A DNA stretch of 59,596 bases from a virus: positions 1 through 59,596 of IMG/VR virus record IMGVR_UViG_3300021962_000117, one strand, 5' to 3'. A model generated the notes under the pieces. That model had not been told where the DNA came from. It ran no database searches and saw nothing but the letters and a program-made list of their open reading frames with translations. Shown in pieces: positions 19,983 to 27,626 of this stretch (positions are counted from its first letter, which is position 1; every line of letters starts with the position of its first letter). A program made the translations under genes and the position numbers.

Positions 19983-20009
19983 AAAAGAGGGTCTTAATGA
20001 CCCTCTTTT
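19983..20009. terminator. Bidirectional rho-independent terminator
   Basis: Perfect 11-bp stem AAAAGAGGGTC / GACCCTCTTTT with loop TTAAT, flanked by A on one side and T on the other, between the convergent gp54 gene and the minus-strand gene at 20013. Confidence 0.95.
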
Positions 20010-20012
20010 AGT

Positions 20013-20258
20013 TTATGCTTTTTCTTTTTTAGAAGACTTAGAAGAAAGACCGTTAACTGCTGAAATCACAAGCATGTTTGAAAGGAGATACCACACTCCT
20101 TCAAATCCAACATTAATTCGATGCCTCATCTCTGCATGTTCGCTTTTAGCGGCAACCGCTTGCTCCAAAGCAAGATTATCATAGATAGCCCATGCTCCAA
20201 AATAAGCAGAGAAAGTAAGACCTTGGAGAAGAACGAGAAAGAAGAAAAGTTTTTTCAT
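20013..20258 (-). CDS. Small membrane protein, cyanophage-conserved type
   Basis: 81 residues with an N-terminal hydrophobic helix (LFFFLVLLQGLTFSAYFGAW), a charged middle and a second hydrophobic segment (VWYLLSNMLVISAV), ending in a Ser/Lys-rich tail. It could be an exported or two-pass inner-membrane protein. It is a lone minus-strand gene with its own likely promoter (TATAAT complement at 20281). It has GGAGTAAAG upstream. Function unknown. Confidence 0.75.
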   Translation of the reverse strand: MKKLFFFLVLLQGLTFSAYFGAWAIYDNLALEQAVAAKSEHAEMRHRINVGFEGVWYLLSNMLVISAVNGLSSKSSKKEKA

Positions 20259-20341: not shown

Positions 20342-20349
20342 CATAAATA
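20342..20349 (+). promoter_or_regulatory. Late-promoter-like motif CATAAATA before gp26
   Basis: CATAAATA, 28 bases before the chosen gp26 ATG and first in a long run of tail genes. An imperfect hairpin (GCCAG 20306 / CTGGC 20332) lies just upstream. Confidence 0.55.
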
Positions 20350-20377
20350 ACTTCACTGAGACATGTTATTGGACATT

Positions 20378-21097
20378 ATGCCTTTACCAAAAATTGCAAC
20401 TCCGACATATGAACTTGAATTGCCTTCCACTGGAGAAACTATTCAGTTTAGACCTTTTCTAGTGAAAGAGGAAAAACTCCTTGTTATTGCTATGGAGAGT
20501 GAAGACAATAAACAAATTACAAATGCTCTTAAAAGCGTGATTAAAAATTGTATTCATACAAAAGGAATCAAAGTAGAAACTCTTCCAACATTTGATATAG
20601 AATATTTGTTCCTTAATATTCGTGGAAAGTCTGTTGGTGAAGAAGTTGAAGTAAACATTATCTGTCCTGATGATGGAGAAACTGAAGTTCTGACCAAAAT
20701 TAGTTTGGAAGATATTAAAGTCCAAAAATCAGATGATCATACAAATAAAATAAAGATTAGTGATGATCTGATGATGGAAATGAAATATCCTTCTTTGGAT
20801 CAATTCATTCAAAACAACTTTGATCCAGGCAATAAAAATGTTATGGAACAATCATTTGAAATGATTAGTTCATGTATAGATAAAATTTATTCTGAAGATG
20901 ATGTTTGGGCTGCAGGTGATTGCACAAAGAAAGAAATTTCAGATTTCCTTGACTCTATGAATTCATCACAATTCAAGAGTGTTGAAAGATTCTTTGAAAC
21001 CATGCCTAAACTTTCTCATACATTAAAGGTATTCAACCCTGTAACTAAAGTTGAAAGTGAAGTCACTCTTGAGGGATTAGCAAGTTTTTTCGGATAG
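20378..21097 (+). CDS. gp26: Baseplate hub subunit gp26 / likely tail assembly chaperone
   Basis: 239 residues: MPLPKIATPTYELELPSTGE, FRPFLVKEEKLLVIAMES, then domains with CPDDGETE and a helical C-terminus. This is the T4-like gp26 family. I start at MPLPKIATP; an ATG five codons upstream is also possible. The last codons contain T TTT TTC followed by GGA TAG, so a -1 slip would bypass the stop and continue into the next ORF. Its position directly before the tape-measure genes fits a tail assembly chaperone role. Confidence 0.88.
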   Translation: MPLPKIATPTYELELPSTGETIQFRPFLVKEEKLLVIAMESEDNKQITNALKSVIKNCIHTKGIKVETLPTFDIEYLFLNIRGKSVGEEVEVNIICPDDGETEVLTKISLEDIKVQKSDDHTNKIKISDDLMMEMKYPSLDQFIQNNFDPGNKNVMEQSFEMISSCIDKIYSEDDVWAAGDCTKKEISDFLDSMNSSQFKSVERFFETMPKLSHTLKVFNPVTKVESEVTLEGLASFFG

Positions 21098-21115
21098 GTA
21101 TGGTTCATATGAACC
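21085..21115 (+). other. Candidate -1 ribosomal frameshift signal
   Basis: The heptamer T TTT TTC (21085-21091) is in the right phase with gp26 codons. The zero-frame stop follows after one more codon. Ten bases downstream, GGTTC-ATAT-GAACC (21102-21115) is a perfect palindrome that can form a stem. In the -1 frame the reading runs without a stop into the ATG at 21100 and through the gp51-like ORF. Confidence 0.7.
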
Positions 21116-21288
21116 TAACTGCATACTTTAAACTTAACTTTTCTCTCATGCAGTATCATAAATATTCACTAACGGAAATTGAAAATATGATTCCGTGGGA
21201 AAGAGATGTTTATGTCGCTCTCCTCCAACAGCATGTAGAAGAAGAAAATCTTAAAGCAGAGCAGCAGCAAACAAATGCCCGTTTCTAG
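21100..21288 (+). CDS. gp51: gp51-like hub assembly protein / chaperone extension
   Basis: 62 residues if started at 21100 (or 59 from MNLTAYF at 21109): FKLNFSLMQYHKYSLTEIEN, MIPWERDVYVALLQQHVEEE. The pattern Y-H-x-x-S-L-x-E-I-E-x-M resembles the short extension domain of tail assembly chaperones, as well as proteins labelled gp51 in cyanophages. It is three bases beyond the gp26 stop, in the -1 frame, with a frameshift signal upstream, so it may be made both alone and fused to gp26. It overlaps the tape-measure gene by 14 bases. Confidence 0.72.
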   Translation: MVHMNLTAYFKLNFSLMQYHKYSLTEIENMIPWERDVYVALLQQHVEEENLKAEQQQTNARF

Positions 21289-24200
21289 GTCGAAGCAAAA
21301 AGAAACTATTGATGAAAGAATCCTCAGGATAATTGGTCTTGAGGATATTTTTGACATTGACTATGAAACTTATTTGACTTTATTGAAAGAAGCAATGGTA
21401 AAGGCAAGAATGCCTAGGACCAAACTTTCAACAGAGGAGTCAGATCTTTTGCTTGATGAATATCGAAGAGTAAGATCAAAAAAAGATAAAGGTAGATTTG
21501 AAGTTAAGAAGAAAAAAATAACAACATCTACATTAAGAGGAATACCTGCAACTAAACAAGCAGCAAAATCTAAACCAGTAAGAAAATTATCTCCGGCAAA
21601 AGAAAAAACTACTGCTATCACTATTGCTGGAGGTGGAGGTAAATATTCTCCACAATTAGAATCTGATGTTGCAAGTATCCTTGTATCAGTAACTTCTATT
21701 CTTGGCACATTAAAAGCACAACAAAGTTTTTTAAGAAATAGAACTTCTGGCGAGAATAGAAGATTAGAAAAAGAAAGAAGATCGAAGAGAGAAGGTAGTT
21801 TAGAATCAAAACAATTTAACCCATTAAAAAAAGTTGTAGATAGGATACTTAGTCCAGTAAAAAACATACTTGGCGGAATTCTTGATTTCTTCGTTAACAT
21901 GTTTTTGGGGAGAATATTTATTAAACTGATTGATTGGATGGCTGATCCAAACAATCGAAAAAAATTAACAAATACATTCCGTTTCTTAAGTAATTTTTGG
22001 CCTGTATTTGCAGCAGCCGCTTTAGGATTTGGAACAGGTTTAGTCGGATTTGCTGGAAAATTAATTTCAGTTTTGGGCGGATTTACAGTTAAATTATTAA
22101 GTCTTGCTCCTAGACTTGCTGCAGCTGCGCGGTTTGGTCGTTTTGGCGCGGCTGGAAAACTTGGAGCTGCTGCTGGGTTATTTACTTTTGGTGCTTGGGG
22201 TCCTGAAGTATTTCCAGGATTGACCGGCGATGATAAAGGTGGAGAGGGATTTGGACTTAGTGGTGGTGGTCTTGTTCCTGGTGTAGACTTTAGTAATATT
22301 GGTTATGGTTTTGGACCTGTAGGAACTGACACTGTTCCTGCAATGTTATCTCCTGGCGAATTCGTCATGAGTAAAGGTGCAGTTGATTTACTTGGATCAG
22401 ATGTTCTTGCACAACTTAATTCTCTTGGAGGAGGAACTAACAAACCAAGGCAACTAAGCGGATTAACATATGCCGCTGGTGGTGGATATATTAACAGAAG
22501 AAATAGAGGTTCCGGTTTTGGATCTCCCGCAGGTGGATATCCAGATCAAATTAATAGAGACAGTGATCTTGTTAAATTGGCTCACAGGTTCATTCCAGGT
22601 GCTAAACATATAGTTGGTCATGAATCCACATTAAATAAAACTTTTCTTGGCAAGAAAATAGATAGAAACACCGCTGCTTTACAGGAAAATACTAGAGTAA
22701 CGAGAGAAAATACTTCAGCAAGAAGAAGCGGAGGTGGCAGACCTGGCAGACCTGGATCAAATTTAGGTTCATTGGGTAGTGGTATTCTTGGATTAGCAGA
22801 GGGAATTAGAAATAATGCAGGTCCAGCATTTAGAGACACTGTAAAATGGTTAGCAACAAATAATCCACTCGCTCTTTATGGAGCAGGATTAGAAAAGAAA
22901 GCATCACAAGCAAGTGAAGCAGAGAAAGCGATTGCTAAACTGACAGAAGAAAGAATTAAACAGGGTTTAATTAATCCAGAAGGAAAAGGATTGACATATG
23001 AACTAGAAAAGAAATTTAGATCTGACAATGATCGAATTCAGGGAATGTTCGCACCTGGTCATGACTTATATAAAAATGTTGGAAAAAGAAATTTACTTCA
23101 AAGATTCTTAGATAGATCTAGAGGAGGAAGATTCCTTCAGAATACATATGCAGATATCCAAAATAAAGGTCTTGTTAGAAATCCTCTCCTTGAATTACTA
23201 AAGACTGAACAATCGGAAAAATTTGTCGAGAAAATTACTGCCGGAAGATTTAAAAATTTTGGAGCCACAATAACAGGTGGAGAAATGGCTTTGAAAGGAT
23301 TGGCAGGTCCCCTTGGAAGATTTTATAGAATTGAAGATCAAGGATCTATGGGAAGATACTTGAGACCTGCAATGATGGAAGCTCAAAGAAGAGGTCATAG
23401 TAGTGTTGGAAATACTCAATTAGGACAAGCGTTATATGATAAATTGCTCCCAAATAAAATGGCAAACCTCGCTTTTGGTAGATTCCATTTTAATGTCGAT
23501 TCCAAGGGAAGGGCAAGAGTTGATTCTGGAGAATCTTATGATGCTTCGGAATTAACGCCAGAAGGGTACCATAAGCAAGCACGTCAGCATATAGTTAATT
23601 TCGCTCAAATTCTTCAGGGCAAAAAGGAAGGAAATCCTATTGGAGAATTGTTTAATGCTTTTAGAATGAACAGATCTGCATACTTAGCAACTGGTCAAAA
23701 TAAAGGTTTAACTAATTTAAAACCGATAGGACTTGGACATGATCTTGGCAAAGGATTCTTGTCAACAACTTCAAAGGGAAAAGTTATTCCTAAAATGTCC
23801 ACAGAACAACTAGAACTCTTTAGAGCTGGTGGTGGAGGAGCTGCTCTCGATAAAGGAATGACCTTTGAAGCCATTTTGGAAAAAGGTAGAAAATTAAAAG
23901 GACGTGAAATAGAACACAGAAGACGTGTCGCTTTGGGTAGTGTTTTCAATCAACCTGGATCTAAAGGTTATTACTCATCTACTACTGGCCAATTCTATAG
24001 TAATTACAATCAAGCACTTCAAGACCCAAGAGTTAATGCTGGACATCAATTAGAACTTGCCAAACAGCAACTTAGCGGAAAAAGAACAGCTCCACCGCCA
24101 ATGTCTCCTATTTTTAATAGTAAAAATGTTACAGTGGTTAATGCTTCTGGCGCGGGAGCAGCAAAACCAGGAGATCCAAAATTCATTGGTCCTGTTCCTG

Positions 24201-24289
24201 GAAATGATAAACCTGCGGTCAAAGCAACTCCATCAGGATGGGATTGGGCGAGACAGCAGGTAATGAATGTTCTTGGAATGGGAGGTTAA
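21275..24289 (+). CDS. Tape-measure-like tail protein 1
   Basis: 1004 residues. The N-terminal 200 residues are charged and helical. GGILDFFVNMFLGRIFIKLI and a long hydrophobic Gly/Ala-rich segment (about residues 205-310) follow. GTDTVPAMLSPGEFVMSKGA at about residues 350-370 is the classic motif of many phage tape-measure proteins. The rest is Gly- and charge-rich. Tape measures set tail length inside the tube and may reach the host membrane. Its position after gp26/gp51 fits. T4 uses gp29 for this; direct homology is uncertain. Confidence 0.8.
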   Translation: MPVSRSKQKETIDERILRIIGLEDIFDIDYETYLTLLKEAMVKARMPRTKLSTEESDLLLDEYRRVRSKKDKGRFEVKKKKITTSTLRGIPATKQAAKSKPVRKLSPAKEKTTAITIAGGGGKYSPQLESDVASILVSVTSILGTLKAQQSFLRNRTSGENRRLEKERRSKREGSLESKQFNPLKKVVDRILSPVKNILGGILDFFVNMFLGRIFIKLIDWMADPNNRKKLTNTFRFLSNFWPVFAAAALGFGTGLVGFAGKLISVLGGFTVKLLSLAPRLAAAARFGRFGAAGKLGAAAGLFTFGAWGPEVFPGLTGDDKGGEGFGLSGGGLVPGVDFSNIGYGFGPVGTDTVPAMLSPGEFVMSKGAVDLLGSDVLAQLNSLGGGTNKPRQLSGLTYAAGGGYINRRNRGSGFGSPAGGYPDQINRDSDLVKLAHRFIPGAKHIVGHESTLNKTFLGKKIDRNTAALQENTRVTRENTSARRSGGGRPGRPGSNLGSLGSGILGLAEGIRNNAGPAFRDTVKWLATNNPLALYGAGLEKKASQASEAEKAIAKLTEERIKQGLINPEGKGLTYELEKKFRSDNDRIQGMFAPGHDLYKNVGKRNLLQRFLDRSRGGRFLQNTYADIQNKGLVRNPLLELLKTEQSEKFVEKITAGRFKNFGATITGGEMALKGLAGPLGRFYRIEDQGSMGRYLRPAMMEAQRRGHSSVGNTQLGQALYDKLLPNKMANLAFGRFHFNVDSKGRARVDSGESYDASELTPEGYHKQARQHIVNFAQILQGKKEGNPIGELFNAFRMNRSAYLATGQNKGLTNLKPIGLGHDLGKGFLSTTSKGKVIPKMSTEQLELFRAGGGGAALDKGMTFEAILEKGRKLKGREIEHRRRVALGSVFNQPGSKGYYSSTTGQFYSNYNQALQDPRVNAGHQLELAKQQLSGKRTAPPPMSPIFNSKNVTVVNASGAGAAKPGDPKFIGPVPGNDKPAVKATPSGWDWARQQVMNVLGMGG

Positions 24290-24293
24290 TTAA

Positions 24294-27200
24294 ATGTTGC
24301 CAATCATTCTTAGAGGAGCTACGGCACTTAATAGAGCTAACACAGTAAGAAAAGCCTTAAGTGGTGGAAGTGGCGGGGGAAATAGAAATATTGGAGGAAC
24401 TGGAGGAACTGGAAGTAGAAATCAGACCAGTTCTATGACGGTTCGTCCCAAAACATCATTGATTCCATCATCAAACATATCCATCAATTTTTCCTCTGGT
24501 TCTGGAGGTTCTAGAACTAGTAATGCTAAAACAAATGGTCTTGAAAAAAATGTTAGATTGATTAAAATAACCGTAATCTCCATTGATAGAATTATTAAAT
24601 CAAATTTTATTTTGGAGCAGCAGGCAGAAAAAAGTAGAATACGAAGAGAAGAAGTTCTTCAAAGAAATAAAAGAGAATCTGATTTAGAAAGTAAGAAAAA
24701 ATCAGTTGATCTGACAGGAAATAAAGAGAGAAAAGTAAGAGTTCCTGGTCAAGGATTACTTGGTGGAATACTTGACTTTTTTGTTAACATGTTTTTGGGT
24801 TGGGCAACTTTAAAACTTCTTAAACATATTCCAACCATCACAAAAATATTAAAACCCTTAGCTTCGGCAGTTGATTTCTTTATAGATTTTTCTGGAAAAA
24901 TATTGAATGGATTGGTAACTTTTATTGACTGGGGAGTAAAACTTTATGATTGGTCACGATCTGGAGTTGGTAAAATCTTTGGCGATAATGGACTAAAAGT
25001 TTTTGATGGATTTATAAACACTATAACTACTGTAATGAATTTGGCGATTCTTGCTATGATGGCAGGAATCAATCCTCTCGATCCTTTTGGTAGAGGAAAA
25101 TCCAAAGGTGGACCTAAACCTAGACCAGGAAGAGGCGGCAGACCAAAAGTAACGACTAGTGGTGGAGGCGGTGCTGGTAGACCAAACATAAGAAATCCAC
25201 TTAGAAACAGACCAACTGTAACTCAAGGCGGTAAACAAGGAGGATTTAGATTTCCTGGTACTGGTCCTAAAGTAACTGGAGGATCTCAGCAATTACCAAA
25301 AGTTCCAAAAGGAATAAAAAATCTAAAAGGATTAAAGTCTAGTGGTCTTCTTGGATTGCTGTTACTTATTCCAACCATGTTTGAAGTTGGTGGATTGTTT
25401 CAGCAAGGTTATCGCAAAACTGCAATAAACGTAATAATTTCCACTCTTGCTGGAATTTCTGCTGGTAGTGCAGCTGCATCTGCGGTTGTTGCTGGTGCTG
25501 GTGCATTAGGTCTTACTGGAATTGGAATTCCTGCTGCTATTGCTCTTGCTCTCAGTAGTCTTGTTGCTGGTGGAGTTGCTGGATGGGCTGCATATGAAGC
25601 ATCATATAATACGTTAAAAGCATTTGGATTGCGTGATGATGATCCAGAACTTAAAAAGCAAGGATATTCTTCAGGTGGAGAAGTTGGAAAATCCAAGAAA
25701 AAACAATCGAAGAAAGATATTTCATATGTAGAACCAAGATATAAACCAGTAGAATTTGATGCGAAGAATAATGAGTTTTTTGGTGGAGTAGAATATAAAT
25801 TAGAAAATGGAGTAATGACAAAGGTCGATGCTCCAGAACAACAGCAAAAGACATCAAAACATCTTAAAGATTCTATACGCGAATATGGATCAACTGATTA
25901 TCTTGGTCCAATGTTCAACTTATACTCAAAGTCTTTGTTGGGCAAAAAACCTACCGAATATGATTATAGAGAAGCTGGGCAGGGCGTAAATGCTTGGTTT
26001 GCAAATGCATTGAATAGTGGAGATTTATCTTTAGCAGATATTCTTGTCAAAAAACAGTTTGACTTGACTACATGGTCAACTTCATCTTTAAAAGATATTG
26101 TTGGGGGTTCATCAAAAAGAACTGCCTCTTCTTATAGCGAAAGACAAAGAATGTTTTCTACTATTACTGGTGAAGCTTCACCTTTTATGGGTGGAGCTGT
26201 TACTGGTGGAGGAACATATTCTGGATCTGCCACTGGAGCAGGAATTTTAAGAAATGATCCAGCTTTCGTTCAGGCTGTAAACGAACTTGCAGTGAGACTT
26301 GGAGTAAATCCTGCAGAAATGCTTGGATTCATGGAGATTGAGACAGCAGGAACATTCAGTCCATCAATAGATAATGGTTTGGGGTATGTAGGATTAATAC
26401 AATTTGGACCAGAAGCTAGACAAGATTTAGGAGTAACTAAAGAACAACTCCAATCTATGTCAAGAATAGAGCAATTGAAGTGGGTAGAAAAATACTTTAT
26501 GAATGTCAATAAAATGGCTGGCAAATCAGTGTTTAGACCTGGAGGAGGAGCCAAAGCATCTGATTTATATACGGCAGTATTCTTACCGGCGTATGTTGGT
26601 GCTGATGATAGCACTGTTTTCCCACAATGGGCTTGGGCAGGAAATCCAGCTCTGAGAGATAGTTCGAGACCAGGAAGTCCAATCTGGAAAGGACATATTG
26701 GAAAACTTGTTCAACAAAGAGCGCAAAAATATGGAGCAAGTGGAATAACATTTACACCAACAGAAATGACTGCTGGTGGGGTAACTCCATATGGAGGAGT
26801 GGATTTATCTGGTGTTCAACAAGGAAATCCAGCAGAAGCAGCTAAGAGATTGCTTGCAGATTTTCCTCAGATCAAATCAAGAGGAAATAATTCACAAATT
26901 TTTGCAGCTGGTCTTGGGTATTGGTTGAAAAAGAATTTTGTTCCTCCAGCTAAAGATGCTCATCGTGCAGGTAGAGGAGATCTTGGAGATCCTGCCGGTG
27001 GAGATATGGAACATCCTGATCATGGAGGAGTTGTTGCATCTCATAGAGGAAAAGGTCATTATCAAGGAAAAGCACTTGATCTTGGCGGTATGGGAGCAGG
27101 TGCAGGAGGAGCTTATGCTGGCGATCAAAAATATATGTGGCCTTATATTGCTAAATTTTTAAAAATATATGGTCTCGATAAAGAACCATATGTTCCTCAA

Positions 27201-27626
27201 GTTATTTTCTCACAAGGAGAAAATTTCTCACCTAGAAAGATGGGAGTAATCGGACCTGATAGCGGACACAATGATCATATTCATATTGAGTTCCATAGAG
27301 GTGGATTTGTTCCTGGTCTTTCTGGACGTGAAATTGCATCTAAACTTTTACCTAAAGAATTTGTAGTTGACGTTGATTCGGCTAGAGCAATAGAAGAATC
27401 TTTCCCAGGATTGTTAATGGCAGTAAATCAAGCATCAAACAGGGAAGGAATTATAAAAGCAGTTTCGGAATACACATCAGTAAACTCTCCACAACTTCTC
27501 GTTTATAAAGAACAAGTTACAGACACCGTTTATCTTGATAAAGGTTCTTCATCAAGTATGTCTGAAGGATCAGCAACATCTAGCAATGTCGATTACTTTG
27601 GAATCCTTGATAGACTACCTGGTTAA
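24294..27626 (+). CDS. Tape-measure-like protein 2 with two peptidoglycan-hydrolase domains
   Basis: 1110 residues, preceded by GGAGG. Residues about 155-175 (LLGGILDFFVNMFLGWATLK) repeat the same motif as the preceding protein, so the two are paralogues at the N-terminus. Hydrophobic Ala/Gly helices lie around 355-440. Residues about 650-820 are lysozyme/transglycosylase-like, with FMEIETAG as catalytic Glu and GYVGLIQFG. Residues about 870-1000 carry GHYQGKALDLGG and GHNDHIHIEFH, the H-x-x-G-x-A-x-D and H-x-H pattern of M15/hedgehog-type peptidases. It probably carries the wall-degrading functions during DNA entry. Confidence 0.8.
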   Translation: MLPIILRGATALNRANTVRKALSGGSGGGNRNIGGTGGTGSRNQTSSMTVRPKTSLIPSSNISINFSSGSGGSRTSNAKTNGLEKNVRLIKITVISIDRIIKSNFILEQQAEKSRIRREEVLQRNKRESDLESKKKSVDLTGNKERKVRVPGQGLLGGILDFFVNMFLGWATLKLLKHIPTITKILKPLASAVDFFIDFSGKILNGLVTFIDWGVKLYDWSRSGVGKIFGDNGLKVFDGFINTITTVMNLAILAMMAGINPLDPFGRGKSKGGPKPRPGRGGRPKVTTSGGGGAGRPNIRNPLRNRPTVTQGGKQGGFRFPGTGPKVTGGSQQLPKVPKGIKNLKGLKSSGLLGLLLLIPTMFEVGGLFQQGYRKTAINVIISTLAGISAGSAAASAVVAGAGALGLTGIGIPAAIALALSSLVAGGVAGWAAYEASYNTLKAFGLRDDDPELKKQGYSSGGEVGKSKKKQSKKDISYVEPRYKPVEFDAKNNEFFGGVEYKLENGVMTKVDAPEQQQKTSKHLKDSIREYGSTDYLGPMFNLYSKSLLGKKPTEYDYREAGQGVNAWFANALNSGDLSLADILVKKQFDLTTWSTSSLKDIVGGSSKRTASSYSERQRMFSTITGEASPFMGGAVTGGGTYSGSATGAGILRNDPAFVQAVNELAVRLGVNPAEMLGFMEIETAGTFSPSIDNGLGYVGLIQFGPEARQDLGVTKEQLQSMSRIEQLKWVEKYFMNVNKMAGKSVFRPGGGAKASDLYTAVFLPAYVGADDSTVFPQWAWAGNPALRDSSRPGSPIWKGHIGKLVQQRAQKYGASGITFTPTEMTAGGVTPYGGVDLSGVQQGNPAEAAKRLLADFPQIKSRGNNSQIFAAGLGYWLKKNFVPPAKDAHRAGRGDLGDPAGGDMEHPDHGGVVASHRGKGHYQGKALDLGGMGAGAGGAYAGDQKYMWPYIAKFLKIYGLDKEPYVPQVIFSQGENFSPRKMGVIGPDSGHNDHIHIEFHRGGFVPGLSGREIASKLLPKEFVVDVDSARAIEESFPGLLMAVNQASNREGIIKAVSEYTSVNSPQLLVYKEQVTDTVYLDKGSSSSMSEGSATSSNVDYFGILDRLPG

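Follow-up and report, generated by a model that had tools for sequence, protein, structure and literature searches.

Tail assembly chaperones made by −1 programmed ribosomal frameshifting are already known, lambda gpG/gpGT and others reportedly having been treated by Xu, Hendrix and Duda in 2004; the lambda heptamer is G_GGA_AAG. In E. coli dnaX, the heptamer A_AAA_AAG is preceded by an SD-like element about 10 nt upstream and followed by a stem-loop, and the frameshift truncates the protein. The chaperone genes of T4-like phages are said to be the subject of a study by Vladimirov, Gautam and Davidson in 2022 (Virology 566:9). According to a passage of the PRFect paper (PMC10885494, citing Vladimirov et al. 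2022), some T4-like phages have short and fused long chaperone genes and use no frameshifting, a description that T4 gp26 and gp51 fit as the short and the fused gene. A second paper, citing the same work, mentions slippery sites of the poly-T type in the chaperone genes of T4-like phages (PMC12846349). T4 gp26 and gp51 are both classed as chaperones of hub assembly; assembly needs gp51, which is absent from the particle, and some genetic studies put gp26 in the hub (PMC3004832). The gp51 of cyanophages was described in 2010 as having ∼ 20% of the length of T4 gp51, without its first ∼ 200 residues, and gp51 was reported missing in Aeh1 (PMC3037559).

The window analysed here, a 59,596-nucleotide stretch of viral DNA (IMG/VR record IMGVR_UViG_3300021962_000117), appears to hold another case (Table 1). 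We propose, with a probability of roughly 0.93, that genes 26 and 51 of this T4-like marine phage, a cyanomyovirus, are one tail assembly chaperone gene expressed by −1 programmed ribosomal frameshifting, and that what is called gp51 is almost certainly, judged by comparison of sequences, the frameshift-encoded C-terminus of a long gp26. Most ribosomes would stop at the TAG codon and release gp26, the short form. Some would pause at T_TTT_TTC, helped by the stem-loop 10 nt downstream and the SD-like GAGGGA 8 nt upstream; the two tRNA-Phe would re-pair with UUU_UUU, and the next codon read would be CGG at 21091, giving a long gp26–51 protein of ∼ 303 aa. By analogy with lambda gpG/gpGT, the two forms probably serve to recruit the tape-measure protein and to coat it during assembly of the tail tube. 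The comparison with relatives set out below points firmly to selection on the heptamer, the SD-like element, the position of the stem and the −1 reading frame; the slippage itself, its efficiency and the chaperone role are what we infer.

Table 1. Features of the gp26/gp51 junction and the ORF that follows it (positions of the window).
Feature	Position	Strand	Evidence
gp26 (T4_baseplate family PF12322), short form of the chaperone, 239 aa if begun at the conserved MPLPK	20378–21097	+	
SD-like element GAGGGA (codons Glu-Gly), 5′ of the slippery site	21071–21076	+	anti-SD pairing, GAG bias
Slippery heptamer T_TTT_TTC, phase X_XXY_YYZ	21085–21091	+	
Putative trans-frame extension, −1 frame, 65 aa, including all that is annotated as gp51 in relatives	21091–21288	+	
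gp26 zero-frame stop TAG, 3 nt past the heptamer	21095–21097	+	
Separate 'gp51' ORF as usually called	21100–21288	+	phrog_634, E 2.3e-27; ATG not conserved, without SD
Putative stimulatory stem-loop GGTTC-ATAT-GAACC, 10 nt past the heptamer	21102–21115	+	positional conservation, arm covariation
First of the large ORFs that follow (1004 aa), possibly a tape measure	21275–24289	+	

Direct reading of the window gave GCA AGT TTT TTC GGA TAG as the 3′ end of gp26, and so bore out the in-phase heptamer followed by GGA and TAG (21085–21097) of the preliminary description. The palindrome that it had placed ten bases past the heptamer was found exactly there, with its arms GGTTC and GAACC at 21102–21106 and 21111–21115 and an ATAT loop between them; the upstream GAGGGA is an addition to what had been seen. 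A −1 slip was also said to lead without a stop into the gp51-like ORF, and indeed the −1 frame is open from 21073 to the stop at 21286–21288, a TGA at 21070–21072 closing it upstream. Because this frame opens only at 21073, the shift must fall in the 25-nt overlap, which holds the heptamer. The 65-codon extension reads RIGMVHMNLTAYFKLNFSLMQ.... Profile matches place both parts in the gp26/gp51 family: gp26 matches Pfam PF12322 (E 2.6e-74) and phrog_150 (E 1.6e-78), and the gp51 part matches, besides phrog_634, the C-terminus of phrog_150. For gp26 an alternative in-frame ATG at 20363 is also possible. Among the 93 ORFs of at least 80 aa, gp26 is the only one whose six final codons include an in-phase heptamer and whose −1 frame stays open for at least 40 codons past the stop. 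TTTTTTC as such occurs 31 times in the window, against 31.6 expected; as its frequency in the single sequence is that of chance, the case rests on the comparison with relatives.

Matches to gp26 were found in 709 phage records and more than 500 IMG/VR stretches, and every complete junction in the first 80 loci reads T TTT TTC. S-PM2-like, HTVC008M-like and Vibrio loci were added, and 109 representatives with < 90% protein identity were kept. The first Phe codon is TTT in all of them; the second is TTC in 103 (of 108 that encode Phe), TTT in five and the Leu codon TTG in one. Other conserved Phe columns of gp26 have mixed codons (e.g. 36 TTT : 72 TTC), and Phe elsewhere is 69% TTT. The codon 5′ of Phe-Phe (TCT, AGT, GAT, AAT, GCT or GGT, for Ser, Asp, Asn, Ala or Gly) ends in T in 109/109; Ser codons elsewhere in gp26 end in T in only 60% of cases, compared with all of those before the heptamer. 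At the heptamer the −1 frame is open in every representative, with a median overlap of 37 nt. Were gp51 instead an ordinary separate gene with its own ATG, served by an SD of its own or by termination-reinitiation at TAGGTATG, two Phe codons of gp26 would be all that the T-run represents; these codons, however, are fixed at the nucleotide level, and X is always T.

The heptamer extends to isolates beyond the cyanophages, as TTTTTTC in Aeh1 and nt-1, as TTTTTTT in Melnitz, HTVC008M, pf16 and Ochrobactrum OC, and as TTTTTTG in phiM9. A second set, drawn from bacterial and archaeal assemblies (mostly metagenome bins with phage contigs) and scanned separately, has T TTT TTN in 34 of 34 readable junctions. 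In two loci (L219 and L230) the zero-frame stop lies eight codons past the heptamer, which is still at the homologous Phe-Phe. Over some 200 loci the heptamer is nearly invariant and the −1 frame always open. The preliminary description had named relatives without the heptamer, or with stops between it and the second ORF, as grounds for refutation, and the proposed pair withstands this test. The sole exception found is the distant Vibrio phage K474 (L090), which is without the canonical heptamer. Its junction reads ACG CTT TTT GCG TAA TGATGG, with an ATG that overlaps the stop, which may mean that the second part is expressed there in a third manner. In L220, L225, L227 and loci of the HTVC008M/Melnitz type, TTTTTTT directly abuts a zero-frame TAA or TAG, so that in several lineages the codon to enter the A site next is a stop.

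Both candidate stimulators were also followed through the relatives. Over 40 nt starting 5 nt past the heptamer, the mean folding z against shuffles was −2.24, compared with −0.52 to +0.11 at five control offsets. The stems vary by lineage and reach 14 bp, while their position downstream of the heptamer is conserved: GGTTC/GAACC and variants in the clade of the window, GTTCTATAATA/TATTATAGAAC in S-PM2-like phages, AGTATGGCTCA/TGAGTCATACT in another group and CCCTCT/AGAGGG in a fourth. The stem of the preliminary description stands as described in the window, although its 5-bp form is only one lineage's version of a variable structure. Two loci (L010 and L036) fold poorly downstream of the heptamer. 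Inner-stem pairing in the window clade is 0.862; shuffling the arms among sequences lowers it to 0.798 (sd 0.010), and none of 2000 shuffles attains the observed value. Slid partners reach 0.53 compared with 0.86. In the S-PM2-like clade, covariation is mostly uninformative, six of 11 pairs never varying, and a single pair has a two-sided change, in three sequences. We regard this modest covariation as support for a paired stem, not as proof, since related sequences inflate such tests.

The SD-like GAGG(G) arises from Glu-Gly codons five and four before the first Phe, a spacing about that known from dnaX-type sites. Anti-SD pairing there averages −6.9 kcal/mol over the 109 relatives, the deepest trough of 54 offsets. 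Its Glu codon is GAG in 71/94 cases, against 30% elsewhere (P about 3e-19, from a binomial test that treats related sequences as independent), which indicates synonymous selection on GAGG. The element lies > 20 nt from the usual gp51 ATG, a distance too large for a role in initiation. These signals also bear on a second alternative, in which the polymerase rather than the ribosome slips on the T-run and the fused frame is made at the level of the transcript. Six Ts, or seven in a few relatives, could serve as such a tract, yet the fixed seventh base C, the phase requirement, the SD-like element and the stem are ribosomal signals, none of which transcriptional slippage needs; we therefore consider it highly improbable.

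We then examined how the sequence beyond the gp26 stop is read. Substitutions were counted between nearest-neighbour pairs over 15 codons starting just past this stop. Differences at −1-frame codon positions 1/2/3 number 151/119/327. The −1 frame has a pN/pS of 0.10, compared with 1.58 for the gp26 frame and 1.79 for the remaining one, which indicates purifying selection on the −1 frame straight after the stop. The peptide just past the site is typically R-[IV]-[AS]-[LMV]-x-[HY], where the supposed start Met of gp51 is one of several hydrophobic residues (M/L/V) at that place. A separately started gp51 would account for the way annotators call the gene, for the ATG 2 nt past the stop in the window and for an early ATG in 84/109 relatives. 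Against this, 25 of the 109 lack any ATG within the 14 codons that open the extension (16 of these also lack GTG and TTG), and where an ATG is present no SD was found before the first one (mean −0.7 kcal/mol, random −1.0). The residues between heptamer and ATG, and those that replace the ATG, are conserved, and in L219 and L230 the conserved extension starts before the gp26 stop. Annotators also leave the gp51 region uncalled in S-CAM1, S-WAM1, ACG-2014d and others, and it is unannotated in about one-fifth of the sampled phage records with a gp51 match. Separate initiation was rejected on the SD, ATG and codon evidence, and we give it very little weight. These data support an extension that is translated as a continuation of gp26, not independently started.

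Frameshifting might still be supplemented, where the ATG is kept, by internal initiation that yields some free gp51 beside the long form. An ATG does stand at extension codon 3 or 6 (counted from 0) in 77/109 relatives; however, these ATGs have no SD, are covered by the hairpin and are freely swapped for Leu or Val codons, and such an addition to the frameshifting model seems unlikely to us.

T4 and the T-evens provide a natural control. T4 gp26 and gp51, which lie on opposite strands, are paralogues, both matching PF12322 over its full length (E 5.2e-63 and 3.9e-52). Beyond this domain, the 249-aa gp51 has a further segment, for which phrog_634 (E 1.2e-23) and a profile comparison (probability 95) show homology to the gp51 ORF of cyanophages. 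Where its two parts meet, DVF|KLL aligns with SFF|R of the gp26-extension. By these alignments, T4 gp51 joins a full gp26-like domain and the cyanophage gp51 domain in one frame, as a natural fusion. T-even gp26 mostly retains Phe-Phe, written TTC TTT or TTC TTC; the three most distant have TTC ATT, TTA TTT and TTT ATT, and the −1 frame leads only into gene 25. Without a frameshift partner, T-even gp26 appears to have lost the heptamer, and phages with a separate long gene are therefore without the slippery site. The in-frame fusion in T4, together with the −1-frame translation signal and the position-conserved stem, supports the preliminary suggestion that gp26 and gp51 form a frameshifting pair. 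Aeh1 (L086) does have the gp51 domain (AGYSARTLRFFRLTLVNDSVYDLFNVNYEM...), which stands in the −1 frame downstream of gp26 and has escaped annotation. Both the short gp51 of cyanophages and the 'missing' gp51 of Aeh1 would follow from its being the frameshift-encoded end of gp26; the oddity noted in 2010 is explained if the cyanophage protein is not truncated. In hundreds of phage records the region appears as an isolated "baseplate hub assembly catalyst" or a hypothetical protein, or has been left uncalled.

On balance we favour frameshifting as the route by which the T4 superfamily (Kyanoviridae, KVP40-like and Aeh1-like phages, and the Sinorhizobium and Pseudomonas relatives) ancestrally made its long chaperone, with a dnaX-like three-part signal whose stem was reinvented in each lineage, and with a later duplication of the gene in the T-evens. 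The direction, from frameshifting to duplication, is one that we infer. If this is true, the T-even duplication gave the separate genes 26 and 51 and let the heptamer decay, and selection keeps the supply of short plus long protein, not the recoding device. The family also offers a clean comparison of recoding and gene duplication as ways of making the same protein pair.

A chaperone role would agree with how T4 gp26 and gp51 are classed for hub assembly (PMC3004832), and also with published work that identified tail assembly chaperones in T4-like phages, as cited in PMC10885494 and PMC12846349. No solved relative of gp26 was found by sequence. Its AlphaFold2 model (mean pLDDT 86) has as its highest-probability PDB match shown the HK97 chaperone gp13 (2ob9; Foldseek probability 0.72, E 1.1, not significant), a mere hint of an HK97-chaperone-like fold. 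A T-even gp51 model compared with the PDB by Foldseek gave nothing useful, and the search against viral models returned mainly gp26-family and uncharacterised phage proteins, which does not bear on the chaperone fold.

Upstream of gp26 lies a tail-tube-like ORF (PF23849, phrog_45). The 1004-aa ORF downstream has a weak match to the tape-measure family phrog_37649 (E 7.9e-6) and a stronger one to phrog_35029, of unknown function (E 1.2e-59); in HTVC008M the next large ORF after the junction matches tape measures. These matches lend weak support to the two large downstream ORFs being tape measures. The N-terminal parts of the 1004-aa ORF and of a 1110-aa ORF at 24294–27626 both match phrog_35029, which suggests that two related tail proteins are encoded in tandem; the 1110-aa ORF also matches peptidase and baseplate-hub profiles at residues ∼ 640–776. 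A TAAATA motif resembling T4-type late promoters stands ≤ 60 nt 5′ of the gp26 start in 80/103 relatives, most often 31–35 nt before it, and in the window as GCATAAATAAC at 20343–20351. A strong terminator-like hairpin, AAAAGAGGGTC-TTAAT-GACCCTCTTTT, occupies 19983–20009, between the tail-tube-like ORF (plus strand) and an 81-aa ORF on the minus strand (20013–20258).

Of the systems described so far, the Vandenendeviridae and Andersonviridae (GTTTTT) resemble the present phages: the short chaperone gene ends in a conserved T-run, the −1 frame is open in all genomes, and what follows has been mis-annotated as a hypothetical gene of its own. They are different families, and the passages of that paper that describe them report neither a TTTTTTC-type heptamer nor an SD-like element (PMC12846349). 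T4 differs from the window phage, whose gp26 locus is without a separate long gene and whose long form would come from frameshifting. With lambda gpG/gpGT and the other −1 frameshifting chaperones, the locus shares a short ORF with a −1 extension, a heptamer just before the short stop and, as it appears, a place after the tail tube gene and before the large tail genes. It departs from lambda in its family (PF12322, T4_baseplate), in the heptamer T_TTT_TTC, in a very short overlap (median 37 nt) and in having a clear stem and an SD-like element as candidate stimulators. That three-part layout is the one found at dnaX, where the frameshift truncates the protein; the frameshift proposed here would extend it.
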